In this document: positions 42,088-60,209 of the stretch, one piece after another | How positions within the stretch are numbered: the stretch's first letter is position 1 | Layout: every line of letters starts with the position of its first letter | Assembly (NCBI GenBank): GCA_018813765.1 | Contig: JAHJBC010000002.1 | Coordinates: 186,001-250,000, forward strand | From: Gammaproteobacteria bacterium | Lineage (GTDB): Bacteria; Pseudomonadota; Gammaproteobacteria; Burkholderiales; Gallionellaceae | Direction: 5' to 3' | Length of the DNA: 64,000 nt | Notes under the pieces: model-generated | The model's database searches: none | Told to the model about the DNA's origin: nothing | The model's input: only the letters and a program-made list of their open reading frames with translations | Position numbers and translations under genes: made by a program

Positions 42088-42498
42088 TCATTTTGCCAAC
42101 GTCATGAACGACAGCTTGCTCACCCCGGCTTTCTGCGCGATGGCCATCAGTTGCGCGACGCGGCCATAGTTCACCGCATCGTCGGCTTCGATCTGCAACT
42201 GGAACTGCGGATCGGCGGCGCGCTGGCGCAGAGTCTCGGCCAGCGCTTCGTCGCTCACATGCATGCGGTCCATCTCGATGTTGCCCTGCGCATCCACCAC
42301 CAGGCTGACCTTTTGCGGCTTGTCCTCACTTTGCACCGAGTCGGTCTTGGGCAGGTTGATCTTGAGCGACTGCGGCGCCAGCAGCGGTGCGGTGATGATG
42401 AACACCACCAGCAGCACCAGCATCACGTCGACCAGCGGCGTGACGTTGATCTCGCTCATCATGCTGCCTTCTTCAGAAGAATTGTTCCCGAAGCTCAT
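42088..42498 (-). CDS. exbD: Energy-transduction protein ExbD
   Basis: Works with ExbB and TonB to pass proton-motive force to outer-membrane receptors. The 136-residue protein has a single membrane span with the conserved Asp24 in VTPLVDVMLVLLVVF and a periplasmic domain ending SKLSFMTLAK. It is 7 nt after exbB and last in the TBDR-tonB-exbB-exbD operon. Confidence 0.95.
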   Translation of the reverse strand: MSFGNNSSEEGSMMSEINVTPLVDVMLVLLVVFIITAPLLAPQSLKINLPKTDSVQSEDKPQKVSLVVDAQGNIEMDRMHVSDEALAETLRQRAADPQFQLQIEADDAVNYGRVAQLMAIAQKAGVSKLSFMTLAK

Positions 42499-42505
42499 GG
42501 TCGCC

Positions 42506-43162
42506 TCACAGTTTGTAATCGTGCTTCTGCGCCAGACGCATGAAGTCGTGGGCGAAGTTCTCCAGGTCGGTCACGTGCACTTTCAGGCGACGCAGGAAGA
42601 AGTTGTAGGCCAGCACCGCAGGCAGCGCCGTGGCGATGCCGATGGCGGTGGCGATCAGCGCCTCGCCGATGGGACCGGCCACCACATCCAGCGAAGCCGA
42701 GCCGGTACTGCCGATATCCTGCAGCGCATGCATGATGCCCCAAACCGTGCCGAACAGGCCGACGAAGGGCGAGGTGGAACCGATGGTCGCCAGTTCGGCC
42801 AGGCCGCGCTCATGATAGCGTTGGATATTCTGCAACTGCTGGCGCAGCATACGTTCGAGCACATCGTGCGGAGCGCCGGAATGCTTGAGGTCCTGCTGCG
42901 CCTCGTTCAAAGTCTTCAACTCGGCGAAGCCGGCCTGCGCCAGACGCGCGATGTCGCCTTCGCTGTTCTTCGTCACCTCGGCGGCCTTGCTCCATTCCTG
43001 TGCCGACCAGAAACCGTCGGTGAAGGCGAGGTCGTGCTTGCGCGATTGCCATTGCTTCCACAGCTTGAACAGTGCGATCGACCAGGTGGCGATGGACAAT
43101 ACGATCAGCAACACCAGCGTCAGAAATACGATAGGCGAGTTGATGGAAAGGAATTCGTTCAT
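42506..43162 (-). CDS. exbB: Energy-transduction protein ExbB
   Basis: Proton-channel subunit of the TonB complex (MotA/TolQ/ExbB family). Its 218 residues contain three membrane spans and the conserved ELATIGSTSPFVGLFGTVWGIM and IGEALIATAIGIATALPAVLAYN stretches. The ATG overlaps the tonB stop by 4 nt. The downstream exbD and upstream tonB make the assignment to TonB rather than Tol secure. Confidence 0.95.
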   Translation of the reverse strand: MNEFLSINSPIVFLTLVLLIVLSIATWSIALFKLWKQWQSRKHDLAFTDGFWSAQEWSKAAEVTKNSEGDIARLAQAGFAELKTLNEAQQDLKHSGAPHDVLERMLRQQLQNIQRYHERGLAELATIGSTSPFVGLFGTVWGIMHALQDIGSTGSASLDVVAGPIGEALIATAIGIATALPAVLAYNFFLRRLKVHVTDLENFAHDFMRLAQKHDYKL

Positions 43163-43800
43163 GCTTCGTCACCTTCTAAGGAAAATTTGATCGGCACCAG
43201 GAACCATTGCGTGACGGGCTGCCCGAAACGGCGCGCGGGCGAGAAGCGCCATGTCTTCACCGTCTGTATCGCGGCATTGTCGAGAATGTCATAGCCGCAG
43301 CTCTGGTGCAGTTGCACTTCCCCGGCCTTGCCCTCGGCCAGCACCTCCACGTTCAGCACCACCTTGCCGTGATAACCCATGCGCCTTGCCACCATGGGGT
43401 ACGGCGGGCGCGGGTTGTTGAGGTAATCGGCGCGGTAATCCGGCTCGGCATCCAGCACGATGGGCGACGGCGGCGTGGCTTCCTGCTGCACGGGCTGCAC
43501 CTCTTCCTGCTTGGCCGGTTCTTCGGCCGGCAACGGCTCGGGCTCGCGCGGCTTGGGTTTGGCTTGCGGCGTGATGTCGGCCTGCTGCATCTGCATGTTG
43601 GCGAACGAGATCGACATCTCGTTGACCAGCACGGCCGGGGATTCCGGTTGCAGCCAATACGAGGCAAACAGCAGGGCATGCAGCATCACGACCAGCGCGA
43701 CCACGCTGATACGCTCGTGCAAAGGAGAACGCTCCGGCTGGGATGAATAGGCGTACGACATCGCCATGAACGGGTTGAATGTGAATTCGATGGCAGACAT
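43159..43800 (-). CDS. tonB: TonB energy transducer
   Basis: Spans the periplasm to energise outer-membrane receptors. The 213-residue protein has an N-terminal membrane anchor (about residues 33-50, VVALVVMLHALLFASYW), a Pro/Glu/Lys-rich linker (about 75-115), and a TonB C-terminal domain with YPMVARRMGYHGKVVLNVEV and WRFSPAR. The start at 43,800 lies one nucleotide past the receptor stop; a Met 11 codons later is an alternative. Confidence 0.92.
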   Translation of the reverse strand: MSAIEFTFNPFMAMSYAYSSQPERSPLHERISVVALVVMLHALLFASYWLQPESPAVLVNEMSISFANMQMQQADITPQAKPKPREPEPLPAEEPAKQEEVQPVQQEATPPSPIVLDAEPDYRADYLNNPRPPYPMVARRMGYHGKVVLNVEVLAEGKAGEVQLHQSCGYDILDNAAIQTVKTWRFSPARRFGQPVTQWFLVPIKFSLEGDEA

Positions 43801-43801
43801 G

Positions 43802-45922
43802 CTACCAGCGCCCTTCCAAAGTCGCCACGAGCGAGCGGTATCCGTGCTCCACTGCATTCAATTGCCAGGTGTCGCCGCCGCTCATGTAGCGCGTACTGCG
43901 CTCGGTATCGGTCGCCAGCAGGTTCTGTCCGCTGACGCGCAGCTTGAATTTGGGATTAAACCTGTACAACCAGAATGCATCCACTGTCGTTCTGGCTTTG
44001 GTATAACCATATTTCTCGCCGGGAATATCGGTCACGCTGCGCCCGGACAGTTGCAACGTGATGCCGTAGCTGGATTGCAAACTTGGCAAAGTCTCATCCA
44101 GCCCAGCAGAAAATACATACTTGGGCGTGTCTTGCGCCATGCGTGTGATGCCGAGGCGCTCATCTTTCACCTGCGCATGCGGCAGCGTCAGGTGAGACTT
44201 CAGTGTCGCCCCTTTCCAGCCAAAGTTGTCGGTGCGGATTTTGCCATCCAGTTCGAAGCCCCAATGCATCGCACTACCTTCATTCTGCGGCCTGTCCACC
44301 CAGCGGGTGCCTTCCTGCTGCACGCGGCGCTCGGTGAAATCCCGCGTGGAGCGCACATACAGATTCGCCCCCAGCACGCCCGCCTCGGCATCGAGGTAGC
44401 GCTCCATCACGGCTTCGAAATTAATGCTGCGTTCGGGCAACAGGTTCGGATTCCCCCGCACATCTGCTTCCACGGGAGTATTGGTACCGACGCTGAGCGT
44501 CGCCGCATTGCTGATCTCGCCCAGTTTGGGCATCTTCAAGCCGGCCCCCAGCGACGAGCGCATCACCCATTTATCCGCCGGCTCCATGCGAATGGCCAAA
44601 GAAGGCATCACTTGCCCGCGTTGCTGCGATGCGCCCGAAGAATCCAGGGTAATGGTTTCACCGCGCAAACCGTAGGTCAGCGTCGTTTTGGGTTGCAGCA
44701 CCCAGTCGTCCTGTATCCAGGCAATGCTTTGCTTCTCATGCGCCGCGTATGAAGCTGCGCTGCCAGAAAAACTCTGGTCTTGAGCAAGACGCAGATTGAT
44801 ATATTCCAGACCCACTGCCACGAGATGTTCTGCGCCCAGCGGCTTATCCAGCCGGAAAGCGAAGTTGGATTCGATTTCCCGGCTCTCGTTATGGTCGGTC
44901 GAATTGGTCAAGCCGGTGCGGACGGTATCCGTTGTGTTCTTCCTGTTGCTGACAGAGGCCCGGCTGGTCAGCTTTGAATCGCCGACATGCTTTTCACCGT
45001 CGACCCGCAAACGGGTCATCCGCACCAGACCGTTCACGGTGCTTACGCGCACGCCGTTGTCGGCCGGTATGGCGGAACCCGACAATGTCGTCTCGCCGCT
45101 TGAATCTTGCGGGTTGAAAAAATACATCGGCGCAACCGTCAGGCTGTCGTTGCCATCCTTCCAGGTCATGCGCGGCGTGAGCGTGTGATGCCCCATCTTT
45201 CTCGTGCCGCGTTCGCTCTCATAGGTATGCGATGTGTTGTCCTGCTTTTCGGCGTTATTGGAGATGGGGAAATTGTTCCACATCAACCCGATCGGCAATG
45301 ACCAGGCAAAACCGCCTTCCCCCCCGGTCTTCGTCAATGCAAGCTGGCTGAACGACTCCGAACCCTTCCTTCCGATTCCGACCCTGATCTCCGTCGAGCT
45401 CTTGGGCAGGGCTTTCTTCATGATCAAGTTCACCGTAACCGAAGCAGCCCCGCCAAACTCTGCCGAAGAGCCGCGGATAATTTCCACACGCTCCAGTTCC
45501 CCGGAAGGCAACCGTCCAACGATCCCCACCATCGAACCGCCGCCAGCCGAGCGCTCGCCGTCGATCAGGACCTGCACGGAATCGCGCGACATGCCGCGCG
45601 TGCGATGCCCCATGCCGCCGCTGCCCAACTCGACACCCGGTAATTTGCCCAATACCTCGCCGACGGTCATCACGCCGAGGTTTTCGATGTCTTTGCGATT
45701 CAGAATGACCTTTTGCGTCGTGGCATCGCGACGCTCAGCCACATCCGACATTTGTCCCGTGACCGTAATTTCTTTCAGCGAAGCCGGTTCTTCCGCCCAG
45801 GCAGAAAAGCTGACTGACAGTCCCGCCACGAGCAGGGTGACTAGCGTTTGAGCGCGGTTTGCACATCGACGTAACGTATGGAATTCAAAGGGGTATGCCA
45901 AAACAGGCCGGCTTGATTGCAT
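43802..45922 (-). CDS. TonB-dependent receptor heading the tonB-exbB-exbD operon
   Basis: A 706-residue outer-membrane receptor with a long signal region ending SFSAWA, a TonB box-like EITVTGQMSD, and a plug with GEVLGKLPGVELGSGGMGHRTRG and VQVLIDGERSAGGG. The barrel ends in Trp (LEGRW). The ATG overlaps the stop of a 21-codon upstream frame (TGATG) and has GGAG 5 nt before it. A shared palindrome lies in its promoter. Its position directly before tonB-exbB-exbD suggests a dedicated energising set. Ligand unknown. Confidence 0.9.
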   Translation of the reverse strand: MQSSRPVLAYPFEFHTLRRCANRAQTLVTLLVAGLSVSFSAWAEEPASLKEITVTGQMSDVAERRDATTQKVILNRKDIENLGVMTVGEVLGKLPGVELGSGGMGHRTRGMSRDSVQVLIDGERSAGGGSMVGIVGRLPSGELERVEIIRGSSAEFGGAASVTVNLIMKKALPKSSTEIRVGIGRKGSESFSQLALTKTGGEGGFAWSLPIGLMWNNFPISNNAEKQDNTSHTYESERGTRKMGHHTLTPRMTWKDGNDSLTVAPMYFFNPQDSSGETTLSGSAIPADNGVRVSTVNGLVRMTRLRVDGEKHVGDSKLTSRASVSNRKNTTDTVRTGLTNSTDHNESREIESNFAFRLDKPLGAEHLVAVGLEYINLRLAQDQSFSGSAASYAAHEKQSIAWIQDDWVLQPKTTLTYGLRGETITLDSSGASQQRGQVMPSLAIRMEPADKWVMRSSLGAGLKMPKLGEISNAATLSVGTNTPVEADVRGNPNLLPERSINFEAVMERYLDAEAGVLGANLYVRSTRDFTERRVQQEGTRWVDRPQNEGSAMHWGFELDGKIRTDNFGWKGATLKSHLTLPHAQVKDERLGITRMAQDTPKYVFSAGLDETLPSLQSSYGITLQLSGRSVTDIPGEKYGYTKARTTVDAFWLYRFNPKFKLRVSGQNLLATDTERSTRYMSGGDTWQLNAVEHGYRSLVATLEGRW

Positions 45923-45987
45923 CACGACTCCAGAATGAAATTCTTATTGAAGAACCGGGAAATGCAATGAATGGATTCGATTGGCAT
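45922..45987 (-). CDS. Possible 21-residue leader peptide coupled to the receptor gene
   Basis: ATG at 45,987 follows the strong ribosome-binding site GGAGGG at a 4-5 nt spacing. The frame runs 21 codons and its TGA overlaps the receptor ATG as TGATG, so translation of one would feed the other. The peptide (MPIESIHC... ending FILES) has one cysteine and no clear attenuation run. It may be a translational control element rather than a functional peptide. Confidence 0.45.
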   Translation of the reverse strand: MPIESIHCISRFFNKNFILES

Positions 45988-46003
45988 AACTCCCTCCTGA
46001 TTT

Positions 46004-46047
46004 ATTATGACAAAAATAACCATTATTCCCCTGCGGCATTTCGCCGC
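46004..46047 (-). promoter_or_regulatory. Promoter with regulon palindrome (site C), receptor-tonB operon
   Basis: On the minus strand: palindrome GCGGCGAAATGCCGC (46,033-46,047), abutting a poor -35 AGGGGA (46,027-46,032), 17 nt, then -10 CATAAT (46,004-46,009). It fits the arrangement at the three other sites in this locus, with a single copy of the palindrome. Confidence 0.6.
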
Positions 46048-46052
46048 ATCTC

Positions 46053-46736
46053 TCACCATCTGGCCAGATTGCTGATCCCTACCGCGACCAGCAACAATGC
46101 ACTGGCACGCTCAATCCTGGGACGCCAATTCTGCAATTGCTCGCGCAATTGGGTACCCAAATATGCCATGCCGATACCATAGGCTATCGCGGGGATCACG
46201 ATTGCGCCCAAGCCAAAACTCAGGCCAAGTAACAGTCCGCCTGCCGCGCTGCCGGTCATCGATGCCGAGAACAGCACGATTCCCAAAGGGGCGCAGGGAC
46301 TCAGCGTCATGCCGATACCCATGAGGAACAGGCCGCCGGGCAGCAGCGTGCGCGAACTTTCTTTCCTGTCCATGCGCTGCAACGGCACGCTCTGCAAATT
46401 CGATGAGGAACACACCTTTTCCTGCTTGCGCAGCAACAAAGCCCCCCCCATCATCAGCACGGCACAGCCGACCACGATATGTATGCTGTCAGTGGTGATC
46501 GTATCCTTGACGTAATGCCCCGCCATGCCGACTGTCGCACCGAAAGCGCTGTACGCAGTCAGGCGGCCCAGAGACAAGGGCAGAATGATCTTCCAGGATT
46601 TCTTGATGCCGCCGTCGCTGGCCAAGAACACCGGCCCGAGGAATGGCAGGCAACTGATGAGGCAAGGGCCCATGCCATAAGCAAAGCCCAGTGTGGCCGC
46701 CATCGGAGCGCCCACCACCATGTCGATATCGATCAC
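46053..46736 (-). CDS. DsbD/TauE-SafE-like polytopic membrane protein
   Basis: A 227-residue inner-membrane protein with about six spans in two halves. The first half begins with GMGPCLISCLPFLGPVFLA and the second with GIGMTLSPCAPLGIVLF; the paired cysteines resemble DsbD/CcdA-type thiol-electron carriers more than plain anion exporters. In context with FeS proteins, it could move reducing equivalents or a sulfur species across the membrane. Its ATG overlaps the preceding activator gene region by 4 nt. The exact subfamily is uncertain. Confidence 0.75.
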   Translation of the reverse strand: MIDIDMVVGAPMAATLGFAYGMGPCLISCLPFLGPVFLASDGGIKKSWKIILPLSLGRLTAYSAFGATVGMAGHYVKDTITTDSIHIVVGCAVLMMGGALLLRKQEKVCSSSNLQSVPLQRMDRKESSRTLLPGGLFLMGIGMTLSPCAPLGIVLFSASMTGSAAGGLLLGLSFGLGAIVIPAIAYGIGMAYLGTQLREQLQNWRPRIERASALLLVAVGISNLARW

Positions 46737-47548
46737 GCCGGCTCCAGACGCTGCTCGTCCAGATATTCGCTGCGCGCAAGCATCGCGGCACCGAACGCGG
46801 TGGTGGTCTGCGGATGCTCTGGCACCACGAGTTCGCGCCCGAGCTCGTCCTGTATTGCCGCGACCAGCCCCTTATTCAAGGCCGGGCCGCCGTCGAAATA
46901 AACGCGATCTTCGATACCGACACGTTTGGCCAACCGCACCGTGCGCGAGGCGATTGAGTAATGGATGCCGGCAATGATCTCCGCCTTGCCGTGTCCCTTG
47001 GCCAGCAGACCGATGATCTCCGACTCGGCGAACACGGTGCAGGTGCTGTTGATGGTGAGCGGCGCACCGCTGCCCTGAAAATGGCAATCGCCCAACTCTT
47101 CCAGATCAAGCTCCAGATTGCGTGCCGCCACATCCAGAAAGCGACCGGTACCCGCCGCACATTTGTCGTTCATCGCAAAGTTGACGACATGGCCGTTGCT
47201 GTCGATCTGGATCGCCTTGGAATCCTGACCGCCGATATTGATGATGGTGCGCACCCCGCCATAAGCCTTGCCCGCCTCGAATGCGCCGATGGCATTGGCG
47301 GTGATCTCGCTGATGGAGTCGTCGGCTTCCTTGAACAGCTTGCGCCCGTAACCGGTGGCGATCAGGTAACGCACATCTTCGCGCTTCAACCCAAGTTTGC
47401 TCAACAGATTGCTCAGTGCCTCGGTCGAGTTCTTGTGGAAGAGACTGCCGGAAGGCGTGACATGCACCCCGGCGATGCTGCCCTGTTCATCTACCACTGC
47501 AACCTTGATGGCGGTGGAACCTACGTCTATGCCTGCAAAATAATTCAT
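46733..47548 (-). CDS. ATP-dependent activator of the BadF/HgdC family
   Basis: Homodimeric ASKHA-fold FeS ATPase that injects low-potential electrons into a dehydratase-type partner. The 271-residue protein has the phosphate-binding GIDVGST (residues 6-12), NIGGQDSKAIQ, and cluster cysteines Cys130 (MNDKCAAGTGRF) and Cys170 (TINSTCTVF), matching the HgdC spacing. The start at 47,548 removes a repeat-derived extension. The dehydratase-like partner lies 145 nt upstream, separated by a palindromic repeat. Confidence 0.9.
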   Translation of the reverse strand: MNYFAGIDVGSTAIKVAVVDEQGSIAGVHVTPSGSLFHKNSTEALSNLLSKLGLKREDVRYLIATGYGRKLFKEADDSISEITANAIGAFEAGKAYGGVRTIINIGGQDSKAIQIDSNGHVVNFAMNDKCAAGTGRFLDVAARNLELDLEELGDCHFQGSGAPLTINSTCTVFAESEIIGLLAKGHGKAEIIAGIHYSIASRTVRLAKRVGIEDRVYFDGGPALNKGLVAAIQDELGRELVVPEHPQTTTAFGAAMLARSEYLDEQRLEPA

Positions 47549-47571
47549 TTCAACCTTTCGGACTGCTTGTC

Positions 47572-47687
47572 TCCCTTCTCCCGCAAGCGGGAGAAGGGTT
47601 GGGGATGAGGGTCTGTGCGTACCGTCCAAACTGGCTTCAATCTGCCGCCCCTCACCCCAACCCCTCTCCCGCCTGCAGGAGAGGGGC
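47572..47687. repeat. Pair of inverted CTCTCCC/GGGGTTGGGG palindromic repeats
   Basis: CTCCCTTCTCCCGCAAGCGGGAGAAGGGTTGGGGATGAGGG (start 47,573) and, in inverse orientation, CCCCTCACCCCAACCCCTCTCCCGCCTGCAGGAGAGGGG (start 47,648). Each has its own hairpin. The pair fills the gap between the dehydratase-like gene and its activator and could terminate or stabilise the transcript there. Related copies occur inside mutL. Confidence 0.8.
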
Positions 47688-47693
47688 TATTGG

Positions 47694-48980
47694 TTACGCG
47701 CGATGCTTCTTCCTGTTTTTCAACGATTCCAAAAACGCCTCAATCCGCGTGGACAACTGGCCTTTATCATCCAGACTGTAATCGGTTTCGATATACAGCA
47801 TCGGGATGCCCGCCTTGTTGAACTCCTCCGCCACGCTGCGATACTCCATCTCGTACACCTGGCATCCGGCGAAAGCCTGGTACACCACGCCGTCCGCGTT
47901 GAAGTCCTTCACCAGATCGAGCAGACGCCGCCTGCGGTCGTCGTTGCGCGTGAAGATCGGGCAGGTGCAGGGTTTTAGATACTTGTCGGCCAGGCTATCG
48001 ACCATATCGTTCACCATCCACTCGTCCACTGCCGTCATGTCGTACAGCATGCGGTTGGCCGAACAGGTCTCGTCCGTCACCACCACGCCGCCTGCCTCTT
48101 CGATCAACAAGGGCAGCTTGAGGTTGGGGAAGATGGGGGGCGAACCGGTGAACAGCACGCGCGGCGCCTTGCTTTGCACGGCCTTGAAACCGGACTGGTC
48201 GCGCTGCGCCAGTTCTTCGTTCAGCTTCTCCACCGCATCCGTCCAGCGCTCGATGTCGTCGAAGAAATAGGCATTGGTCACCAGGAATGCATCCTTGCCC
48301 AGAATCAGCGAAGGCGATTTGCGCCGGAAGTTATGTAGCTTGCGAAACGCCGCCTGCGCGCGGCTGGTCTTGGCCATCGCCGCCTGCAGGTTCTTGCGCG
48401 TCAGCTTCTTGCCTGTCAGCTCGCGCAGCCGCGCCGTGAACTGGCGCACCGAACGCTGCCAGTACACGCGCGAGGCTTCGCTTTCCTTGACGTTGGGAAA
48501 TTCGAGGTCGTACACGGCATAGCCCATGTCCTCGATCATCACGCTGGATTTCTTCTTCTGATCGCAGGTGGTCGGATTCACGACCAGATCCGGTTTGCCG
48601 ATCCTGGGAATCACATTGTCCGAATTCAGCATACCCAGCGTGGCCTTCACCAGCGAGCAGGATTTGGCCGGCATAAAATCCGCGCCCTTCTGGTCGTAGT
48701 GATAGGAACCGTTGCACAAGCGCATCGGCGTCGCACCGAAAGCATAGATCAGCTCTTCCGGCGCCTGGATGCAAGTGGTGCCGACCAGCATGCCCTCGTG
48801 CTTCACTTCGTCGCCGTGGCAATACACACGACGGAACAGGTCGTAGAAATACGCCATGGATTGCGGATTGTCGGGAAAATCGTCCACGATGTGATCCAGC
48901 ATGTTCTCCGCTTCGCCTGCCTGGCGCGACAAATGATACGGCGCCGACTGGATCGGTATCACTTTGGCGTCATTTTCCAT
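47694..48980 (-). CDS. 2-hydroxyacyl-CoA-dehydratase-family FeS protein (double-cubane-like)
   Basis: A 428-residue HgdB-family protein. Conserved cysteines include Cys70 (GTTCIQAPEE), Cys89 (RLCNGS), Cys108 (KSCSLVKA) and Cys139 (PTTCDQKKK), with more in DETCSANR, CTCPIF and AGCQVYE. It is a single subunit: no second dehydratase subunit, CoA-transferase or CoA ligase is nearby. That fits the double-cubane cluster proteins, which with an HgdC-like ATPase reduce small molecules at very low potential, better than true acyl-CoA dehydratases. The start at 48,980 lies inside the upstream gene. The substrate is unknown. Confidence 0.82.
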   Translation of the reverse strand: MENDAKVIPIQSAPYHLSRQAGEAENMLDHIVDDFPDNPQSMAYFYDLFRRVYCHGDEVKHEGMLVGTTCIQAPEELIYAFGATPMRLCNGSYHYDQKGADFMPAKSCSLVKATLGMLNSDNVIPRIGKPDLVVNPTTCDQKKKSSVMIEDMGYAVYDLEFPNVKESEASRVYWQRSVRQFTARLRELTGKKLTRKNLQAAMAKTSRAQAAFRKLHNFRRKSPSLILGKDAFLVTNAYFFDDIERWTDAVEKLNEELAQRDQSGFKAVQSKAPRVLFTGSPPIFPNLKLPLLIEEAGGVVVTDETCSANRMLYDMTAVDEWMVNDMVDSLADKYLKPCTCPIFTRNDDRRRRLLDLVKDFNADGVVYQAFAGCQVYEMEYRSVAEEFNKAGIPMLYIETDYSLDDKGQLSTRIEAFLESLKNRKKHRA

Positions 48981-49968
48981 GATGTATTCCTTTACCCATA
49001 CGTTTGATGAAGCCCGCTTCGGTTGACTCGAAGATGGGGATGCCCGCAAAGGTGGCTTTCAACGCCCCCGTTTCCGGACAAGACGCCACACACTTCAGAC
49101 ACATGGTGCAGTCGTCGGTCATGATGTTCGTGTTCTTGATGTCGTCGGCGATCTCCTTGATCTCCATATCGCACACGTTGTAGCAATCGCCGCAGCGCGT
49201 GCATTTGCTGCCGTCTTTTTTCAGCTTCAGCAGCGCGGGCTTGGAGATCAGGTAATGCAGCGCGCTCATCGGGCAGAAGAAACAGAAGAAACGTTTCTTG
49301 ACGAACGAGCCCACCAGAAACAACGCCGTGATCGAAATACCCAGCGCCGTCATGACCAGCGCTGCCTTGCTGGAAAAGTCGATGGTGAACTGGGAGAAGT
49401 CGCCCGTGAACATCGGCAGGATCATGCGCGCCGGACAGATCAGGCAAAACGGAGGGCTCATGCTGTGCGAGAACAACCCGCCGCCTATGCCCAGCGGGAT
49501 CAGGATCATCAGCGCCAGCAGCAGATACTTTATCTTGGTCAACTGCGCGAACTGCCCTTGGCTATAGGTCGAATAGCGGATGCCGAGGCGGCGACGCAGC
49601 GAAGTCAGCCAGTCCTGCACCGTGCCCAGCGGACACACAAAGCCGCACCAACCCTTATTGAGAACAATGAACCACAATGCAAAGACCAAAAGACCGGTAA
49701 GGACAGCAATACCCGCATAACTGAACAGCCTGGCCCAAGGCAAGCTCAGTTGGTGTTGCAAGGGCAACAGATAACAGACACCCGCACGCCCCTCCTGGTT
49801 GTAGCCGCAGGTGAAGAACGGCAGGCGCGAGCCCAGGTCTATGGCGAGGTAACCGCCATAGACGAACAGGACAAAGGCCGCGAGCTGAAACCAGAAACGA
49901 AAGCGATTGAAATGGACATGATTGACGGCATCACGCAACGCCTGCAGACGTGAACTACTTGCCTTCAT
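48970..49968 (-). CDS. NapH/CcoG-type membrane polyferredoxin
   Basis: A 332-residue inner-membrane protein with about five spans and several FeS motifs: CGFVCPLGTVQDW and CLICPAR in the membrane part, CFFCPMSALH, and two C-terminal [4Fe-4S] sets, CTRCGDCYNVCD and CTMCLKCVASCP. NapH-like proteins pass electrons from the quinol pool to cytoplasmic or periplasmic acceptors. It overlaps both neighbours by 11-14 nt, so it is likely the electron donor to the activator/double-cubane pair; that link is an inference from order. Confidence 0.88.
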   Translation of the reverse strand: MKASSSRLQALRDAVNHVHFNRFRFWFQLAAFVLFVYGGYLAIDLGSRLPFFTCGYNQEGRAGVCYLLPLQHQLSLPWARLFSYAGIAVLTGLLVFALWFIVLNKGWCGFVCPLGTVQDWLTSLRRRLGIRYSTYSQGQFAQLTKIKYLLLALMILIPLGIGGGLFSHSMSPPFCLICPARMILPMFTGDFSQFTIDFSSKAALVMTALGISITALFLVGSFVKKRFFCFFCPMSALHYLISKPALLKLKKDGSKCTRCGDCYNVCDMEIKEIADDIKNTNIMTDDCTMCLKCVASCPETGALKATFAGIPIFESTEAGFIKRMGKGIHHGK

Positions 49969-51220
49969 GGAAGCGCTCCTCCTGATACGGCTTGACCCGG
50001 CGGCGACGGTAGAGATAGACCGCCACACCGCAGAACAGCAGGATGGCCATGCCTACGCCGAGAGCCCAGGCATAGGAAAGATAATCGGTCGGAGAAGGGT
50101 AGTAATTGCCCGACAAGGACGCCTGGTAGCGCACGTTGCTGTAAGGCTTGTCCTGATATTTTCCGGTCTCGGCCACATTGGCTTCCGCGATCAGCAGATA
50201 AGTGGCCTTGAAGCGTTTCTCGAAATCATTCCATGGCGGAAAGTAATCGCGCACGATCTGGAAACTGACCCGCCCCATCTCGTCGCTGACTTCTTCCTTG
50301 CTCCAACCTTGGTGGCTGATCATGCGCACGCGCGCGCCCTGCAGCGGCAGCCCCTTCCTCAGCACGAGGAATGCTTGCTCCTCGCCCGACTTCAGTTGGA
50401 AGAATTTCCTCTCGTCCGGCTTGCGCTCGCGCACGATCTCCATCTGAGCCGATTCGGAATAGCGCGTCGCCAGAAGACCCTTGGCTGCCTCCTCCTCATC
50501 GCCGCCATGCCCGAAGTTGGCAACCTCGGCTTTGGCGACATTGACGTTCAGCGTATCGCCCTGCAGTTTGCGGCTGGTCAGGTACAGGCGATAGAAACCC
50601 TGTACCGGCATTTCAAATGACAAGCCTTTGCGGTCGTCATTCGCGGACGGTAAAGGCTCACCCTCGGGCTTGCCATCGGGCGTGACGAGCAAGGTTTCCA
50701 CTTGCGCATCGGTATCTTCCTGTGCAAATCCGGAGCGTTGCGGATCATTACCTGCACGCAGCCACAGGCGTTTGACGGCAGGCTTGCCCCATCCCCCTCC
50801 GCCCATGTCCATGCCAGCCATGCCGCCCATCCCGCTGCGTCCACCGCGTGCGCTGTCGCCGCGCATCGGCGGAGTATCGGATAGCCACAGCGCCACGCCA
50901 CTACGCATCCCCATGCCGATGGGGCGACCTTTTTTTGCAGTCGCTTCCTTGGGCTTGCCTTGCGGCTTGGGCATCATCGCCGACATATCGTGGGATGACA
51001 TGTCATGCATCGACATATCGTGCACAACCGCCGGGGCCGCGACCTGCGTATTCTCGCCCGTTGCTGCATCGCGTTTGGCGCGCCATTCGGCTATCTGCGC
51101 CTCGCTGGGTCGACCACCGCCTGACCCATAACGCTTCTCGGGGGCAGGAGCGTCCTCGCAATAACCGCTGCCCGACAGGGTTGCCAACAGGGCGAATACG
51201 CAAAGATATAGTTTTGACAT
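49955..51220 (-). CDS. Met/His-rich DUF4198-like membrane-anchored periplasmic protein
   Basis: A 421-residue protein with a signal peptide (to about residue 21, SGSGYC), then a Met/His-rich tract (HDMSMHDMSSHDMSAMM; later MGMRSG and GMGGMAGMDMGGGG), a beta-sandwich resembling the DUF4198/NikK family (GLPLQGARVRMISHQGW, DEMGRVSFQI), and a C-terminal membrane helix (about 387-406) with a basic tail. Met/His tracts of this kind bind copper or other soft metals. It follows the receptor gene by 20 nt. Metal choice cannot be read from sequence. Confidence 0.78.
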   Translation of the reverse strand: MSKLYLCVFALLATLSGSGYCEDAPAPEKRYGSGGGRPSEAQIAEWRAKRDAATGENTQVAAPAVVHDMSMHDMSSHDMSAMMPKPQGKPKEATAKKGRPIGMGMRSGVALWLSDTPPMRGDSARGGRSGMGGMAGMDMGGGGWGKPAVKRLWLRAGNDPQRSGFAQEDTDAQVETLLVTPDGKPEGEPLPSANDDRKGLSFEMPVQGFYRLYLTSRKLQGDTLNVNVAKAEVANFGHGGDEEEAAKGLLATRYSESAQMEIVRERKPDERKFFQLKSGEEQAFLVLRKGLPLQGARVRMISHQGWSKEEVSDEMGRVSFQIVRDYFPPWNDFEKRFKATYLLIAEANVAETGKYQDKPYSNVRYQASLSGNYYPSPTDYLSYAWALGVGMAILLFCGVAVYLYRRRRVKPYQEERFHEGK

Positions 51221-51240
51221 TGTTGGCCTTATCACGTTGC

Positions 51241-53646
51241 TTAAAACACCATGCTCAAACCGGCAGTCCAGACTCGTCCTGGGTTGACCGTAATGGAGGG
51301 ATCTTCCTGGTCATAGACTTGATCTCCGTTGCTGTCCCGGATTCCGCGTATGGTGCTGTAGTAATAGCGGTTGAATATGTTGTCGATACGTGCAAAGGCT
51401 GAGAATTTCATGCCACTTTCGCGCTTGACCTCATAGGTCATCATCAGGTTGTATACGCTGCGTCCGCCCACCCATACGACGTTCATTTCATCCGCGAAGA
51501 TGCCGCTCTGCGCATTCAATTCCGTGGTTACTGTCCAGTGCTCTGCGGGACGATAACGCACATTCAGGTTGACCTTGTGCTTGGGGGTGCGGGGAACGAC
51601 ATTGCCGGTGTTATTGACTTCCACCAAGTGGTAAGTGGAAGGGAACGAGTATTGCTCCCCCAACCCCAGCCAGTAATGGTCGTAGCGGGTGAAGCGTGCA
51701 TCCAGCCAGGTGTAGGCGAAATCGGCAGACAGGGCATCGCGGCTATCTGTCTTGATGCCGGCTTCCAGGCCGCGATTGCGCACTCCACCGATGTTCTGGT
51801 ACTGCTCCAGTCCGTTCGTCGCAGTCGCACCCTCCGTAGTCGTATATTGACCACCGGTATTCAGGATGAAGTCGTTGCGGTCGATCTGAAACACTGCGAC
51901 ATCCATATCCAGCGTTGTGCCCAACAACTCGCGTTTGCCGCGCAAACCGATCTCCTTGTTCCAGGATTTCTCTGGCTTCAGGTCGGGATTGCCGGCAACC
52001 ACACTGGTTGGAGAGATGGTAGTGCCATACATCTGAGAGGCAGTCGGCGTACGGAAACCGTTGGAGATATTGCTGTAGATCTCGCTCGACTCCCCAACTG
52101 CGTAGTTCAGCCCAATGCGTTCCGACAACACATTAAAAGTCTTGCTGGCCGAAGCGAGCGTCGGCGCAGTGACCGGGAGATTATTGGTATATCCATTCTT
52201 GATGTTGTCATATCGACCGTTGAGCGTCAGCGCCAGCGGTTGGCTGAGCTGCCATTTCGCCTCGCCATACACCGCCCTGGTATCGTTGGTAATGACAGTA
52301 TCGCTCGATACAGTACCGGCCAGCTTCAGCGGGTTGCTTACCCCGATCGGCGAGCTGCGTGAAGAGTAATTCACCAGATAGGTAGACACACCGTGATCCT
52401 CGAACTTCTGCAAGTCCAATCCCGCCATCAGGCCGACTTCTTCGCCGCCCTTGCGCCATTCGGATTTCAAGCCCCGCTGGGTTTGCTTCGTATCTTGTCC
52501 TGACGCATAAACATCCCGCATCTCGGACATATCGCCAAGCAGGTTCCCCGCACTGTCTCGAAGGTAACCGCTCGGCCCTTGCCAGCCATAGGTGTGATCC
52601 TTGTATTGATAGGTCATCAGCATCAGGTTCGTGTTATCCCCAAGATCTTTGGAATAGGTCAGGTTCAGCTTGTTCAGCTCCACATCGTAGTTCCTGGCGT
52701 AATCCTTGCCACCGGATGTCGCGCTTCGCGGATCGATCAGTGCATTGGTCACCCCTGTCACTGTGCCGTGGCTATCCTTCTCGCGATGCGAATCCTCGAA
52801 GCCAAACGCGATGTCGCTGCTCTCATCAACGAGATATTGCAACTTGCCGTCCACATAACGGCGCGACCATGCTCCTTGATCGTAGAAATCGTCGGACATC
52901 GCCTTGCTGACCTGGATATGCCCCACCCATTCGTTCTTGGCAAATCCGGCACGCGCCAATCCCTTGCGGTAGTTGAAGCTCCCGGTCTCGACGCTGGTGG
53001 TATACCCGGCCATCTTGGCGCCGCGTTTGGTAGTGATGATCACTGCGCCGGAAAGCGCATCTTCGCCGAACAGGTAGGACGCGCCACCTTTGATGACTTT
53101 GATCGAATCGATATTGTCGAGGTCGATGTTGACGCGACCGGTACGCTCAACCACTGGCACACCGTCGATGATGATTGCAACGCCAGGCTTCTCGCCCATG
53201 AAGCGTTGCGCCTCTACACCGCGCAACATGATCTTCACCGAGTCACCGCTCTGCACTTCGGCAGTCACACCAGGAATGGATTCCAGAACATCGACGATGT
53301 TCTTGCCGTGTTCTTCATCCACCTTCTTGCCGCTGATATTCGAAATATTGCTTGCCTCGCCTCGCTTCGATTCGAAACGGTCGTCAATCGTGGTGGAGGT
53401 AACAACCACTTCTCCCAGCATTTTCTTTGTCTCTCCGCCCTTGCCTGCCTCTGCTGCCGGCGATGCTGTTTGGGCGGGTGCAGTTGTACCGGCCGAAGTT
53501 TCTGCCGCTGGTACAGCCGGTTGGGAATTGGTTGAGGGTTCGGTCGCAGGCGGTACTGCTTGAGTATCTTCAGCGTAGCTGGATTGGACAAACAACATGG
53601 ACAACACGAGCGACAGTGCGCTCATGGCTGTGAGTTTCTTGTTCAT
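51241..53646 (-). CDS. TonB-dependent receptor heading the double-cubane operon
   Basis: An 801-residue outer-membrane receptor starting MNKKLTAMSALSLVLSML with a signal peptide ending SSYA, a Pro/Ala/Thr-rich segment (about 30-70), a plug (GKNIVDVLESIPGVTAEVQSGD, then IIIDGVPVVERTG) and a barrel ending in Phe (TAGLSMVF). GGGGAG before the ATG fixes the start. Downstream genes on the same strand lie within 20 nt or overlap. The leader resembles that of the next receptor, indicating duplication of the promoter region. Confidence 0.9.
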   Translation of the reverse strand: MNKKLTAMSALSLVLSMLFVQSSYAEDTQAVPPATEPSTNSQPAVPAAETSAGTTAPAQTASPAAEAGKGGETKKMLGEVVVTSTTIDDRFESKRGEASNISNISGKKVDEEHGKNIVDVLESIPGVTAEVQSGDSVKIMLRGVEAQRFMGEKPGVAIIIDGVPVVERTGRVNIDLDNIDSIKVIKGGASYLFGEDALSGAVIITTKRGAKMAGYTTSVETGSFNYRKGLARAGFAKNEWVGHIQVSKAMSDDFYDQGAWSRRYVDGKLQYLVDESSDIAFGFEDSHREKDSHGTVTGVTNALIDPRSATSGGKDYARNYDVELNKLNLTYSKDLGDNTNLMLMTYQYKDHTYGWQGPSGYLRDSAGNLLGDMSEMRDVYASGQDTKQTQRGLKSEWRKGGEEVGLMAGLDLQKFEDHGVSTYLVNYSSRSSPIGVSNPLKLAGTVSSDTVITNDTRAVYGEAKWQLSQPLALTLNGRYDNIKNGYTNNLPVTAPTLASASKTFNVLSERIGLNYAVGESSEIYSNISNGFRTPTASQMYGTTISPTSVVAGNPDLKPEKSWNKEIGLRGKRELLGTTLDMDVAVFQIDRNDFILNTGGQYTTTEGATATNGLEQYQNIGGVRNRGLEAGIKTDSRDALSADFAYTWLDARFTRYDHYWLGLGEQYSFPSTYHLVEVNNTGNVVPRTPKHKVNLNVRYRPAEHWTVTTELNAQSGIFADEMNVVWVGGRSVYNLMMTYEVKRESGMKFSAFARIDNIFNRYYYSTIRGIRDSNGDQVYDQEDPSITVNPGRVWTAGLSMVF

Positions 53647-53686
53647 AACGCTCCCCAAAATATTTGTTTTTGATAAACCGGGGCGA

Positions 53687-53746
53687 ATACTAAAGACCTC
53701 TCGCAAGCATGGAAATGTGACATATTGTCGCGCGACAAAATGTCGC
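53687..53746 (-). promoter_or_regulatory. Promoter with two tandem regulon palindromes (site A)
   Basis: On the minus strand: GCGACATTTTGTCGC (53,732-53,746) directly followed by GCGACAATATGTCAC (53,717-53,731), one base, a weak -35 TTTCCA (53,710-53,715), 17 nt, and -10 TAGTAT (53,687-53,692). A further half-site GCGACATTC lies at 53,760 on the plus strand. The geometry suggests an activator that contacts RNA polymerase at the -35. Confidence 0.7.
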
Positions 53747-53864
53747 ACCCTCATAAGGGGCGACATTCTGAGTAAATTGCCATGAAGTTTATTAAATGTG
53801 GGCGCAACACAATGTGCCCCGTGCTGATTGCGAGATACCGATTTGTATTCGCCCTTTGTGTCAA

Positions 53865-56009
53865 TCAAAAATTGTATGCAACGCCGGCACGCATGATCCG
53901 CGCCGTATATCCCGAGCTGTAGGTACTGACGCCCGCATCAGTTGTACTCTGGCGATCCGCGTACTTCGTATTCAACAAATTCAGTACGTGGAACCATGCT
54001 TCCCACTCCTTGCCGCCATAGCTGGCACGCAAGTTGTAGAGATCGGGGCGCGCGTAGGTATACTGGTTATTGCTGCTGGAGTAATAGGAACTGGTGTAGT
54101 CCCCTTCCAATTCAACCTTCAACTTTTCAACCGGCTTGACCGCCACGCGCAAGTTAACGTGATGTTTCGGGGTGTAATTGCGGCTCAGTCCGGAGTAGTC
54201 GACTGCCGATGTGACGTAGTTGTCGTACGCATATAGGCTGTAGGTATGCGCCATCGCCAGACTCAGTGCGTGGTTGACCTTGTATCCCATTGTTGTCTCC
54301 ACCCCGCTGGCATGTGCGCTGGCCGCATTCTCGTTCCTGGTGGTACAAACCTCGGTTGCACTGCAAGTCTGCGACACGATCAGATTCTTGAATCGTGTCT
54401 GGTAATAGTCGGTATCAAAGCTCAGGCCAAAATCTGTTTGCCCGCGAATACCGATCTGTTTCGTCAATGAAGTTTCCGGCAACAGATCCATATTGGTGGG
54501 GACATAGGTGTTCCTGCCAGTCGGCTTGGTTGCCGGAGGCGGGGTATTGGAACCCAGCAGCGTACTTATAGAAGGCGCCAGAAACCCTTCCCCGATGTCC
54601 GCCCACAGGATGGTGCTGGCATTCAGTTCGTAAGTAACGCCAGCCTTTTTAGTCGTGCGGTTCCAGGTTTTGCTGCCGTCTTTTGTATCGGTGATTTGAT
54701 CGTCAATGGTGTACTTGATATTGTCGTTGCGGGCGCCGATTGCAAAACGCAGGGGCTGCAACGGCGAAAACTCGTATTGCAGGAATGGCGACCGATGCCG
54801 CTCCATCGTTATCGAATCGCCGGTCAACGCACCGCGTACAAAATCAAAGTCTGTACTTATGTCCGCATAGCTCTTGGTCTGGCTGTCCGTCGTCATGTTG
54901 TCGATGCCGCCAGTAATGGCCGATTTGGCCAGCTCGAAGCTGTGTTTATAAAGCAACTGGATATTATTCTCGGTTGCCGTGTTGTCGCTGAGCTTACCCG
55001 TGGCACCTCCACCGTAACTCGGGGTCTTTGCAGTGGAATCCGTCTTGCGCGACTGCGCATAGACGTTCAACTCGCCGTTATCACCGAATAGCCTGCGGTA
55101 TTGCAGGGATGGCGTCGTATATTCGACATCCGTGCGGTAATACGTATTCGGCGCTGCCTGCCGCCAATCCTGATCGAACTCCTCCTGCGTCAGCGAACCC
55201 GAATCCTGATAATCGTCGTGCAGGTACTCGAGGCGAAAACTCAGCTTGGCCACATCTTCGGGAAATACCACCCATTTCGTGCTGAAGGAATCTTTCTTTT
55301 CTGCCGTATGAACGCGCCAGCCTTGGGTATCCTGCCTGTTGGCATTGACGAAGTAGCCCAGTTTGTTCGAAATCGGCCCGGCACTCGTCACCCCCGCCCG
55401 ATAACCACCGTCGCCCATCAGCTCGTAGGTCGCTTCGTTCTCGCTGGTGTTGGGCGGATTGCGTGTGATCACATTGATCGTGCCGCCGATCGCATTGCTG
55501 CTGTTCAGCACCGAACCCGGTCCGCGAATGAATTCGATGCGCTCGATATCGCCCGTATTGGACTGATCGACAAAACCATATGTACCAGTATTTCGTGTGC
55601 GCATACCATCGGTACGGTTGTCAGTGTAATTCTTGCCCCCATCCGCAAAACGCATATTGCGACTCATACTGACGCCCGGAACGCGTCTCATGATTTCGTT
55701 CAACGTCGACACAGACCGCACCTGTTCAAGTTCCTTGCGATCAACCACGGTACCCGCCAGCGGTGTTTCCTTGGTCAACATGCCGAGCTCGGTGCGCTGC
55801 TGCACCGGCCTTTCCCTGTCCGCCGTTACAACCATTTCCTTTAGCAGCCGGGCTTTTTCGTCTTCAGCCTGGCTTTCAGTCTGCACTGGCAGATTGCTTG
55901 CAGGTTGAACTGCCGATGCTGGCAACGCATCCTCCGCAATGGCCTGATTGAAGAATGACATGTACATCACGAGCGGCAATGCGCTCATGGCAACGAGTTT
56001 CTTTTTCAT
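53865..56009 (-). CDS. TonB-dependent receptor with siderophore-receptor-like plug
   Basis: A 714-residue outer-membrane receptor starting MKKKLVAMSALPLVMYMS, whose signal peptide closely resembles that of the neighbouring receptor. The plug has VSTLNEIMRRVPGVSMSRN, GDIERIEFIRGPGSVLNSSNAIGG and INVITRNPP; the barrel ends in Phe (RAGVAYNF). Plug motifs are of the siderophore-receptor type. Transcribed from its own promoter (site B), divergently from the cytochrome b561 gene. Ligand unknown. Confidence 0.9.
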   Translation of the reverse strand: MKKKLVAMSALPLVMYMSFFNQAIAEDALPASAVQPASNLPVQTESQAEDEKARLLKEMVVTADRERPVQQRTELGMLTKETPLAGTVVDRKELEQVRSVSTLNEIMRRVPGVSMSRNMRFADGGKNYTDNRTDGMRTRNTGTYGFVDQSNTGDIERIEFIRGPGSVLNSSNAIGGTINVITRNPPNTSENEATYELMGDGGYRAGVTSAGPISNKLGYFVNANRQDTQGWRVHTAEKKDSFSTKWVVFPEDVAKLSFRLEYLHDDYQDSGSLTQEEFDQDWRQAAPNTYYRTDVEYTTPSLQYRRLFGDNGELNVYAQSRKTDSTAKTPSYGGGATGKLSDNTATENNIQLLYKHSFELAKSAITGGIDNMTTDSQTKSYADISTDFDFVRGALTGDSITMERHRSPFLQYEFSPLQPLRFAIGARNDNIKYTIDDQITDTKDGSKTWNRTTKKAGVTYELNASTILWADIGEGFLAPSISTLLGSNTPPPATKPTGRNTYVPTNMDLLPETSLTKQIGIRGQTDFGLSFDTDYYQTRFKNLIVSQTCSATEVCTTRNENAASAHASGVETTMGYKVNHALSLAMAHTYSLYAYDNYVTSAVDYSGLSRNYTPKHHVNLRVAVKPVEKLKVELEGDYTSSYYSSSNNQYTYARPDLYNLRASYGGKEWEAWFHVLNLLNTKYADRQSTTDAGVSTYSSGYTARIMRAGVAYNF

Positions 56010-56047
56010 ACGCTCCCCTGTGTTTCGAGTTGGAAAAACCGGAGCGA

Positions 56048-56107
56048 ATACTAAAGACCTGCCATCATCAGGGGAATGCGTCATATTGCCGCGCGGCAAT
56101 TTGCCGC
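56048..56107 (-). promoter_or_regulatory. Promoter with two tandem regulon palindromes (site B)
   Basis: On the minus strand: GCGGCAAATTGCCGC (56,093-56,107), GCGGCAATATGACGC (56,078-56,092), one base, a poor -35 TTCCCC (56,071-56,076), 17 nt, -10 TAGTAT (56,048-56,053). Position by position it matches site A. It lies between divergent receptor and cytochrome b561 genes and could serve both. Confidence 0.7.
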
Positions 56108-56183
56108 ACCTCTGCGCAGTCAACAAATGCAGCGGTTTTGCTACCATGCGCGCACGTAATCGAATGACAAGCAAGGGATCTGC

Positions 56184-56858
56184 ATGATGAAGAAAGACAA
56201 GCCCGAATCACTTCAGGTATGGGACCTGCCCACCCGCCTCTTCCACTGGACGCTGCTTGGGTTGGTCGTCGCGTGCTGGTGGACAGCGACAGAGGATGGC
56301 GACATCGACTGGCACATGCGCTGCGGCTATGCGGTGCTGGCGCTGTTGCTGTTCCGGCTGGCTTGGGGTGTGTTGGGCAGTACGACGGCACGCTTTGCCA
56401 GCTTTGTCGCCTCGCCGCGCTTGGTGTTCGAATACTTGGCTAACGCACGCAAGAATGACATCACGCACATCGGCCACAACCCTGCGGGCGGCTGGATGGT
56501 GCTGGTGCTATTGGCGATGTTGCTGGCGATCTCGCTCACCGGCCTGTTCGCCAACGACGACATCATGAGCGAAGGCCCGCTGGCGCATCGCGTCAGCAAG
56601 GGAATGAGCGACCTGGCGACCGCCTGGCACGAGCACGGATTCCATGCGCTGCTCGCGCTGGTCGCGCTGCATGTCGCAGCCATCGTGTTCTACCTGGTGG
56701 TGAAAAGAGACAATCTGGTGCGTCCCATGCTGACCGGCGTCAAACATTTGCCGCAGGCCGGGAACGTTCCACAACTGCACATGCGCAGCATCTGGCTCGC
56801 ACTGGCGATAATGGGTGGTGCTGCAGGGACAGTCTGGCTGCTGACGAAGTTCGCCTGA
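56184..56858 (+). CDS. Cytochrome b561-type di-heme membrane protein
   Basis: A 224-residue inner-membrane protein of the bacterial cytochrome b561/HydC type with about four to five spans. Candidate heme ligands are His21 (PTRLFHWTLL), His44 (DWHMRCGY) and the histidines of EHGFHALLALVALHVAA. It would pass electrons between quinones and periplasmic c-type cytochromes. It converges with a cytochrome c' gene 18 nt away and diverges from a TonB receptor; a role in the same regulon is inferred. Confidence 0.88.
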   Translation: MMKKDKPESLQVWDLPTRLFHWTLLGLVVACWWTATEDGDIDWHMRCGYAVLALLLFRLAWGVLGSTTARFASFVASPRLVFEYLANARKNDITHIGHNPAGGWMVLVLLAMLLAISLTGLFANDDIMSEGPLAHRVSKGMSDLATAWHEHGFHALLALVALHVAAIVFYLVVKRDNLVRPMLTGVKHLPQAGNVPQLHMRSIWLALAIMGGAAGTVWLLTKFA

Positions 56859-56876
56859 CAGCCAGACCGGAGGGAA

Positions 56877-57341
56877 TCAATCGGACTTGGTCTTGAACTC
56901 TTCGTGGCAGGCCTTGCAGGTCTTCCGCACCTTGCCGAACTGTTCATTCAACGCGTCCAGGTTGCCGCCCTTGGAAAGCTCCGCCAACTTGGCTGTCTCG
57001 CTCTCCATCGCGTCGTTTGCTTCCTTGAACTTGTCGGCCTTGCTCCACACATCCGGCTTGGCCTTGGTCTCACCCTTGTCCGAACCGGGGATGAATGCAT
57101 CCTTCGGCAGCTTGCTCAAAAAGGCCAGCGTCTCGGCATTGCGCTGGAACTGCGCCTTGTCGAACGGCATGTCACCTTTGAGCATGCGCCCCATCGGCCC
57201 CATGTACCAGGTCAGCATGGTAAATCCGCTCTTGCGCACCTTGATGGCGAAATCCTCGCGCGACATCTCGGCCTGGGCGACGCTCACATAACCCGCCAGC
57301 AAAGCGACGGACAACACGACCTGCGACATTCTCTTCAACAT
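56877..57341 (-). CDS. Cytochrome c' (periplasmic, c-type heme)
   Basis: A 154-residue protein with a signal peptide (to about residue 24, VSVAQA) and a C-terminal heme site CKACH, the hallmark of the four-helix cytochrome c'/c556 class. GAGGAG lies 5 nt before the ATG. Cytochromes c' bind NO or transfer electrons. Its promoter carries the regulon palindrome (site D), linking it to the receptors. Confidence 0.9.
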   Translation of the reverse strand: MLKRMSQVVLSVALLAGYVSVAQAEMSREDFAIKVRKSGFTMLTWYMGPMGRMLKGDMPFDKAQFQRNAETLAFLSKLPKDAFIPGSDKGETKAKPDVWSKADKFKEANDAMESETAKLAELSKGGNLDALNEQFGKVRKTCKACHEEFKTKSD

Positions 57342-60116: not shown

Positions 60117-60209
60117 GAGGGCGAGCCTGCCAACTGCCCGGTTTAATCAAACAACTCTTCCACGCTTGCCGATATAATCCGCCCAACCAACGCGACAATC
60201 CATAGAGAA

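Follow-up and report, generated by a model that had tools for sequence, protein, structure and literature searches.

A candidate copper-type TonB uptake cassette with a double-cubane cluster protein in a Gallionellaceae genome

Gene content of the cassette

The window analyzed here is a stretch of 64,000 nucleotides from a Gallionellaceae genome (Gammaproteobacteria bacterium, assembly GCA_018813765.1, contig JAHJBC010000002.1, positions 186,001 to 250,000; positions below are those of the window). It contains a 15 kb cassette in which three TonB receptor genes, A, B and C, accompany the gene of a double-cubane cluster protein (DCCP). All named cassette genes lie on the minus strand and fit the families assigned to them. 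Their order is the one given by an earlier reading of the letters without database searches (the sequence-only reading), which had counted two receptors. The lead gene of the DCCP operon encodes receptor B (P0006, 51241-53646) and lies directly 5' of the gene for a Met/His-rich protein with a DUF4198 fold (P0001, 49955-51220). The genes for a NapH-like membrane polyferredoxin (P0003, 48970-49968), the DCCP (P0002, 47694-48980), an HgdC/BadF-type ATPase activase (P0004, 46733-47548) and a DsbD_2-type membrane protein with CxxxC and PC motifs (P0005, 46053-46736; PF13386, 81.2 bits) follow. The coordinates give overlaps of 14 bp (DUF4198/NapH), 11 bp (NapH/DCCP) and 4 bp (HgdC/DsbD), so the tight packing described earlier holds except for one gap between the DCCP and HgdC genes (47549-47693). 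This gap contains a repetitive extragenic palindrome-like repeat (47573-47686) with 32-nt inverted arms, each arm being itself a hairpin. Receptor C (P0008, 43802-45925; Pfam) follows the operon, together with genes for TonB (43159-43857, PF03544), ExbB (42506-43162, PF01618) and ExbD (42088-42498, PF02472). Receptor A (P0007, 53865-56009), with Pfam barrel and plug domains, precedes it.

The P0002 protein scored 367.7 bits with the NCBIfam DCCP model NF040772, above the curated cut-off of 350, and its closest solved relatives by sequence are 7yyl (E 4.9e-71) and 6eno (E 1.4e-70). Its AlphaFold2 model (predicted local distance difference test, pLDDT, 64) has 6eno as top structural match (E 2.3e-21). 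Six cysteines, C71, C109, C140, C307, C341 and C374 (numbered with the start Met as residue 2), are invariant in 13 aligned sequences, and they align with Cys36/73/100/263/293/327 of BzdN, which are described as its [8Fe-9S] cluster ligands in the part of PMC11971306 available to us. The six ligand cysteines of the putative eight-iron site, which the sequence-only reading proposed to check by structure prediction, are thus kept, and the low-confidence model matches 6eno first. A profile search of the whole genome (3.14 Mb, 99.76% complete) gave a single HGD-D match (PF06050), and therefore no second HGD-D subunit, distant or near, was found there. The adjoining HgdC-type gene product P0004 scored 234.7 bits with TIGR00241 (cut-off 125.4). 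As the sequence-only reading had proposed, the HgdB-like protein is, judged from sequence, a single-subunit double-cubane-type reductase with its own activase, and not an acyl-CoA dehydratase. An identity as acyl-CoA dehydratase or benzoyl-CoA reductase was rejected on the single HGD-D gene, the lack of a heterodimer partner and the DCCP model being the best one. The protein resembles the DCCP:DCCP-R system (6eno, 7yyl; NF040772) in its fold, six cysteines, single HGD-D gene and HgdC-type partner; it differs in sequence (about 31-32% identity) and in its place, within an operon that also encodes a TonB receptor and a polyferredoxin. The same part of PMC11971306 reports that archetypal DCCPs reduce acetylene, hydrazine and azide, and states that their biological function is unknown.

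The partners of the DCCP look like metal-handling proteins. P0001 scored 19.1 bits with DUF4198 (PF10670), under the gathering cut-off of 34. However, its AlphaFold2 model (m06de09a12e18, pLDDT 79) matches Zcp with bound copper, zinc or cobalt (9mhm, E 2.7e-9), and also a Ni-bound DUF4198 protein (9gcb), so that the DUF4198-like label stands by fold and falls short by profile. The protein has a Met/His-rich stretch and a C-terminal membrane anchor, and is presumably periplasmic; an HxCxxGH motif found in many of its homologues is absent from it. P0003 scored 81.1 bits with NapH (TIGR02163), below the cut-off of 213.05. Sixteen of its cysteines are kept in all 66 aligned sequences, eight of them in two [4Fe-4S] motifs and others in CxxxCP and CxxCP motifs and an outer pair, as far as the topology can be read by eye. 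Sequence searches of the PDB yielded no helpful match for either the DUF4198-like or the NapH-like protein. Among aligned DsbD_2 homologues, CxxxC is found in 50 of 50 and the PC motif in 49 of 50. Matches of the receptors to solved structures are weak and mixed (pyrroloquinoline quinone, heme, B12 and siderophore receptors), and assignment of a ligand from them was dropped.

Other features surround the cassette. At the right end of the interval described by the sequence-only reading (42088-57341), a cytochrome c' gene (56877-57341, minus strand; PF01322, 131.3 bits) forms its own unit. Between it and receptor A lies a cytochrome b561 gene on the plus strand (56184-56858). A Gp49 gene (PF05973) followed by a short open reading frame (ORF) with no Pfam match (59434-60205) is possibly a HigBA-type toxin-antitoxin pair, after which comes a PD40/WD40-repeat gene of low guanine-cytosine content (60587-62203). 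A scan of the window for RNA families gave one tRNA and no riboswitch.

Conservation of the four-gene block

DCCP genes were found in 12 of 150 genomes of the same bacterial family. At the class level, 15 of 369 genomes gave matches, which split sharply into this clade (at least 59% identity, 5 genomes) and distant relatives (at most 25%, 10 genomes). A scan of named genomes retrieved 70 loci (our locus numbers are given below with L, genome numbers with G), nearly all from metagenome assemblies; Parasulfuritortus cantonensis LSR1 and Desulfurivibrio sp. AMeS2 are carriers with isolate records. The record titles include beta- and gammaproteobacteria (Sideroxydans, Gallionella, Thiobacillus, Sulfurisoma, Dechloromonas, Methylococcales) as well as Nitrospirota, Desulfobacterales, Desulfocapsa, Desulfurivibrio, Spirochaetia, Lutibacter and other Bacteroidetes, Nitrospinia, Krumholzibacteriia and others. 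The loci were retrieved with peptide patterns drawn from this DCCP clade, and co-occurrence is therefore measured inside the clade and not across all DCCPs; ORFs in the scripted counts are simple longest-ORF calls.

Where the contig was long enough, the DCCP gene had beside it a DUF4198-like gene (65 of 65 loci), a NapH-like gene (69 of 69) and an HgdC gene (68 of 68), and the block DUF4198-like/NapH-like/DCCP/HgdC was unbroken in every evaluable locus. Because this block is kept in all evaluable loci among the 70, the gene arrangement of the cassette is not due to chance. A DsbD_2-type gene follows the block in 57 of 64 evaluable loci and was not found in 7; a TonB receptor gene is near in 55 of 63 and was not found in 8; ExbB/ExbD/TonB genes were detected in 33 of the 70. 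The co-occurrence with TonB receptors proposed from the window is thus wide within the clade. Since the genes co-occur there and a second HGD-D subunit was not found, neither of the two outcomes named beforehand as counting against the proposal was seen. One locus (L048:432-5064, same genome as L032) has a second DUF4198-like/NapH-like/receptor set, without a DCCP of its own, directly ahead of the DCCP cassette.

A shared operator and a cassette form without the DCCP

Pattern searches found the palindromic operator TGCGRCAWWWTGYCGCA in doubled form ahead of receptor A (56078-56107) and receptor B (53717-53746), and operator-like copies with one mismatch ahead of receptor C (46033-46047) and cytochrome c' (57405-57419, site C8:243405). 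These four upstream regions hold two exact and four one-mismatch sites. The own genome has 25 sites with at most one mismatch, 6 of them inside this 15 kb, against 15 for a control pattern genome-wide. Among the 70 loci the exact palindrome occurs in 19 copies at 13 loci, including those of a Candidatus Desulfobia (L097) and a deltaproteobacterium (L117), while three control patterns gave none in 1.07 Mb. The doubled site, with one mismatch allowed, was found in 64 of the 150 family genomes, and the control gave 0 among the matches listed.

In this bacterial family the operator is shared with TonB-copper receptors (TIGR01778), known as OprC/NosA. The own genome's match to this model (762.9 bits) has one exact site 207 bp upstream of it, and in 6 of 11 other family genomes with a receptor and a listed site the doubled site lies 189-249 bp ahead of the receptor. 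Together, 7 of 12 evaluable family genomes have the operator at 189-249 bp, the own genome being counted by its single exact site and not by a doubled one. The count used 30 of 34 receptor rows, with G148, G084, G093 and the below-cut-off G038 excluded; G001, G022, G037, G050, G091 and G109 have receptor and sites at positions outside the listed matches and stand outside the 12. The receptor of L202 was checked separately (746.2 bits, cut-off 472.45).

A second link leads to copper storage. A gene for a Csp1-family protein (40221-40664, minus strand; TIGR04401, 152.2 bits, cut-off 100; PDB 5fjd, E 4.5e-24) lies 1.4 kb beyond exbD, outside the interval of the sequence-only reading, with an ORF without Pfam match between them (40772-41929, minus strand). 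The protein is an ordinary member of its family, and its position alone is notable; for Tat export it scored 14.8 bits with the TAT_signal model (cut-off 22.7). Of the 29 genomes that have both Csp1 and doubled operator sites, 13 have such a site no more than 8 kb from Csp1, where random placement would give 0.36; this comparison used 47 listed genomes and the own genome, Csp1 rows over the cut-off, and a limit of 8 kb set after inspection of the data. Csp1 is within 8 kb of the DCCP gene in 3 of 7 family genomes that have both.

Operons of a receptor and a PepSY_TM protein are also preceded by the operator in the own genome (L135) and in L207, and L208 looks alike. These are reminiscent of the copper-regulated crtA-crpH operon of Bordetella. 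In the portions of PMC12914433 and PMC13038864 available to us, that operon joins a TonB receptor for chelated copper to the gene of CrpH, a membrane protein suggested by the authors to reduce copper in the periplasm, and some such operons carry exbBD/tonB. Set beside it by this description, our cassette is similar in having a receptor gene next to that of a membrane protein; as far as those portions show, it differs in that the reductase there is a PepSY_TM protein and not a NapH-like polyferredoxin, and none of the terms polyferredoxin, 4Fe-4S, DUF4198 or NapH was found when the main text of PMC13038864 was searched for them.

Further genes were seen behind operator copies. In the own genome (L135:5559-9407, contig C10) an exact operator precedes a gene for a small protein, then ones for an FtsX-type permease and an ABC ATPase, followed by genes for a membrane protein that has an HPHHHCPFC stretch and for a thioredoxin-like lipoprotein, and in L063 a copy precedes SCO1 and genes similar to this set; these are possibly another copper transporter. 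In L199 (4762-8860), L200, L201 and L210, copies precede genes for proteins of about 550-580 residues. The two scanned from L199 have weak cytochrome c and/or beta-propeller matches, and a TonB receptor gene follows in three of the four loci.

In eight family genomes without a DCCP (L185, L187, L192, L193, L194, L195, L203 and L211, being 8 of 28 stretches examined around operator sites or Csp1), the gene of a receptor B homologue (49-66% identity) has palindromes 136-198 bp upstream of it, and NapH-like and DsbD_2 genes come next. A DUF4198-like gene was detected in four of the eight. Seven have ExbB/ExbD or Csp1 genes in the vicinity, and the stretch examined of L211 has neither. All 16 NapH-like cysteines are common to the window protein and nine proteins of the short form. 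G142 carries both a DCCP cassette and, 5-8 kb behind it, a second NapH-like/DsbD_2/Csp1 set. Read most simply, the receptor, the metal binder, the polyferredoxin and the DsbD protein form a unit for metal uptake that functions in the absence of the DCCP. Because the relatives lacking a DCCP keep the operator and the receptor, NapH-like and DsbD genes, the DCCP/HgdC pair appears to be an addition and not the core, and it looks like an ATP-driven reductant module joined to a copper-type TonB uptake system.

Proposed function and its alternatives

We give an even chance to the reading that the locus is a TonB-dependent copper acquisition cassette with an added ATP-driven double-cubane reductase module. 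The metal is probably copper, as suggested by the operator and its other target genes. Receptors A to C, energized by the dedicated TonB-ExbB-ExbD, would bring a copper chelate into the periplasm, where the Met/His-rich, membrane-anchored DUF4198-fold protein would take over the metal. The NapH-like polyferredoxin could use its CxxxCP and CxxCP motifs to move electrons across the membrane from [4Fe-4S] clusters on the cytoplasmic side, and reduce the metal or chelate that is bound. HgdC would use ATP to charge the DCCP, and the DCCP would be a source of very low-potential electrons, most simply handed to the NapH-like protein, a direct transfer that their overlapping genes would fit. Transport of metal or of thiol electrons through the inner membrane might fall to the Cys-rich DsbD-type protein, and storage of the copper to an exported Csp1. 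The analysis shows the genes present, their conservation, the identity of the DCCP, the sharing of the operator and the short form without DCCP; copper as the metal, the direction of the electrons, their transfer from the DCCP to the NapH-like protein, the membrane topology and the roles of the DsbD-type and DUF4198-like proteins are what we infer. Import of a metal complex, as in the sequence-only reading, fits this scheme and is sharpened to copper by the operator and its targets; the reducing chain centered on the DCCP and HgdC does not stand as the core, since relatives without the DCCP keep the rest. More tentatively, and with the balance leaning against it, HgdC and the DCCP may act as an ATP-driven transmembrane metal reductase, sending very low-potential electrons through the NapH-like polyferredoxin to the periplasm and thereby freeing tightly complexed copper (for example with sulfide, thiolate or a chalkophore) imported by the TonB receptors.

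Small Cys proteins ending in RPP/KPP are found near receptors on the cassette strand in 4 of the 70 loci, a count made with no chance control and omitting a fifth match on the opposite strand (L064). They are similar in plan to the copper-sensing leader CruR, which has a CXXC motif and a C-terminal RAPP. In a Lutibacter locus (L109:4660-17533) there are three near-identical 125-residue proteins with a CNGKC motif and C-terminal KPPQ/KPPR; at least two of them stand ahead of TonB receptors, and they look like translational leader proteins. A second receptor in L108, also a locus of Lutibacter type, has TIGR01778 as its best model, at 129.7 bits and below the cut-off of 472.45.

Several observations weigh against copper acquisition with a reductase module. 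Receptors A to C gave no match to the TIGR01778 model at E 0.001, in which they differ from the TonB-copper receptors that share their operator. The exact operator is absent from 57 of the 70 loci, operator sites also precede genes without a known copper role, and the regulator might respond to something that varies along with the need for copper. Csp1 was found in just 2 of the 70 named flanks; its presence is not tied to that of the DCCP (7 of 12 genomes with a DCCP have it, and 60 of 138 without one), so gene-presence association was set aside as not telling and proximity alone is informative. Four of 24 chosen cassette genomes have neither COX1 nor NosZ, and a fifth has a COX1 piece below the cut-off only. 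Confidence in the DCCP model itself is low (pLDDT 64). Reduction of Cu(II) needs no very low potential, which leaves the use of a DCCP unexplained. Two kinds of neighbors point elsewhere: ZnuA and Fur-family genes beside the cassette of L062, and CobN-like genes in six loci (L064, L065, L081, L082, L083 and L085; the L083 member was profile-scanned and the other five joined by BLAST). Most of these six also have ExbB-like and DUF2149 genes, presumably an HmuSTU-like set, and four of the six titles name methanotroph groups.

These neighbors are among the evidence for an alternative that we consider unlikely, in which the cassette serves a metal other than copper or a metallotetrapyrrole (zinc, nickel, cobalt, heme), with the copper genes as mere neighbors. 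Zcp binds zinc and cobalt too, the other DUF4198 match binds nickel, and the highest scores of receptor B, below cut-off, came from siderophore and hemin models. However, the operator shared with TonB-copper receptors in 7 of 12 genomes, and its clustering with Csp1, speak for copper, and a profile search of the own genome found no CobN-type chelatase. Heme or tetrapyrrole dechelation of the HmuS kind, suggested by the six CobN-like loci, was dropped on this last result as a candidate function and is kept within this alternative.

Somewhat less probable still is that the DCCP acts on an organic ligand, an imported copper-binding small molecule being reduced in the cytoplasm with release of copper. 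An isonitrile chalkophore, which resembles the small triple-bonded DCCP substrates, is an example of such a ligand. The reported reduction of acetylene, azide and hydrazine by DCCPs (PMC11971306, in part), the import of chelated copper by the receptor CrtA (PMC12914433, in part) and the receptors with a dedicated TonB-ExbBD, which point to a chelate, would agree with it. However, the conserved block has no inner-membrane importer for an organic ligand, the sole candidate being the DsbD-type protein that was not found in 7 of 64 loci, and the NapH-like protein would stay unexplained.

Genes of copper-enzyme maturation occur beside some cassettes. In L115 the cassette is immediately followed by a NosL match (24.1 bits, cut-off 24) together with genes for an ABC ATPase and an ABC-2 permease, SCO1 is present in L063 (143 bits), and L087 has a tblastn SCO1 match. 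A nos gene set in L114 was dropped: there was no NosL Pfam match, and the ABC ATPase and ABC-2 permease genes alone lie 3.5-6 kb off on the other strand. COX1-type oxidases are in 20 of the 24 cassette genomes (19 over the cut-off) and NosZ in 10, these genomes having been picked by us and the figures having no baseline. The COX1 family (PF00115) also takes in nitric oxide reductases. A scan of 121 flank proteins comprised 117 hand-picked from the 148 nearest of 438 flanking ORFs and four noticed previously (two NapH/DsbD stretches of L051 and the Csp1 of L051 and L052). It gave two members each for NosL and SCO1 among the best 25 of 183 families, and of the two NosL members that of L115 was identified. 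A cassette for maturation of nitrous oxide reductase or heme-copper oxidases, with the DCCP keeping a chaperone or copper site reduced, is the least probable of the alternatives, since these genes are rare in the flanks, four genomes lack both enzymes, and up to three receptors with TonB-ExbBD favor uptake.

Among known systems, CcoG is a polyferredoxin with a C-terminal FixG-type domain. The NapH-like protein gave no Pfam match to that domain, and its gene differs from that of CcoG in lying beside a TonB receptor gene. The available part of PMC13038864 describes cytoplasmic reduction of Cu(II) by CcoG, which is similar to the NapH-like protein as a membrane protein linked to copper reduction. 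We found no description of a system like this cassette in the open-access literature searched (titles, beginnings of abstracts and passages; most subscription papers were outside this scope), in agreement with what the sequence-only reading had claimed.

The results tie a DCCP clade to TonB-dependent, probably copper, uptake across record titles of many phyla, which makes the question of DCCP function directly testable. They suggest that some bacteria invest ATP in electrons of low potential for the sake of acquiring or handling a metal. If the transmembrane metal reductase is true, a stand-alone DCCP would for the first time have a physiological role, and metal acquisition would be powered in a new way. 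Bacteria of the Sideroxydans and Gallionella type are iron oxidizers, and with the operator defined here more of their regulon can be read.

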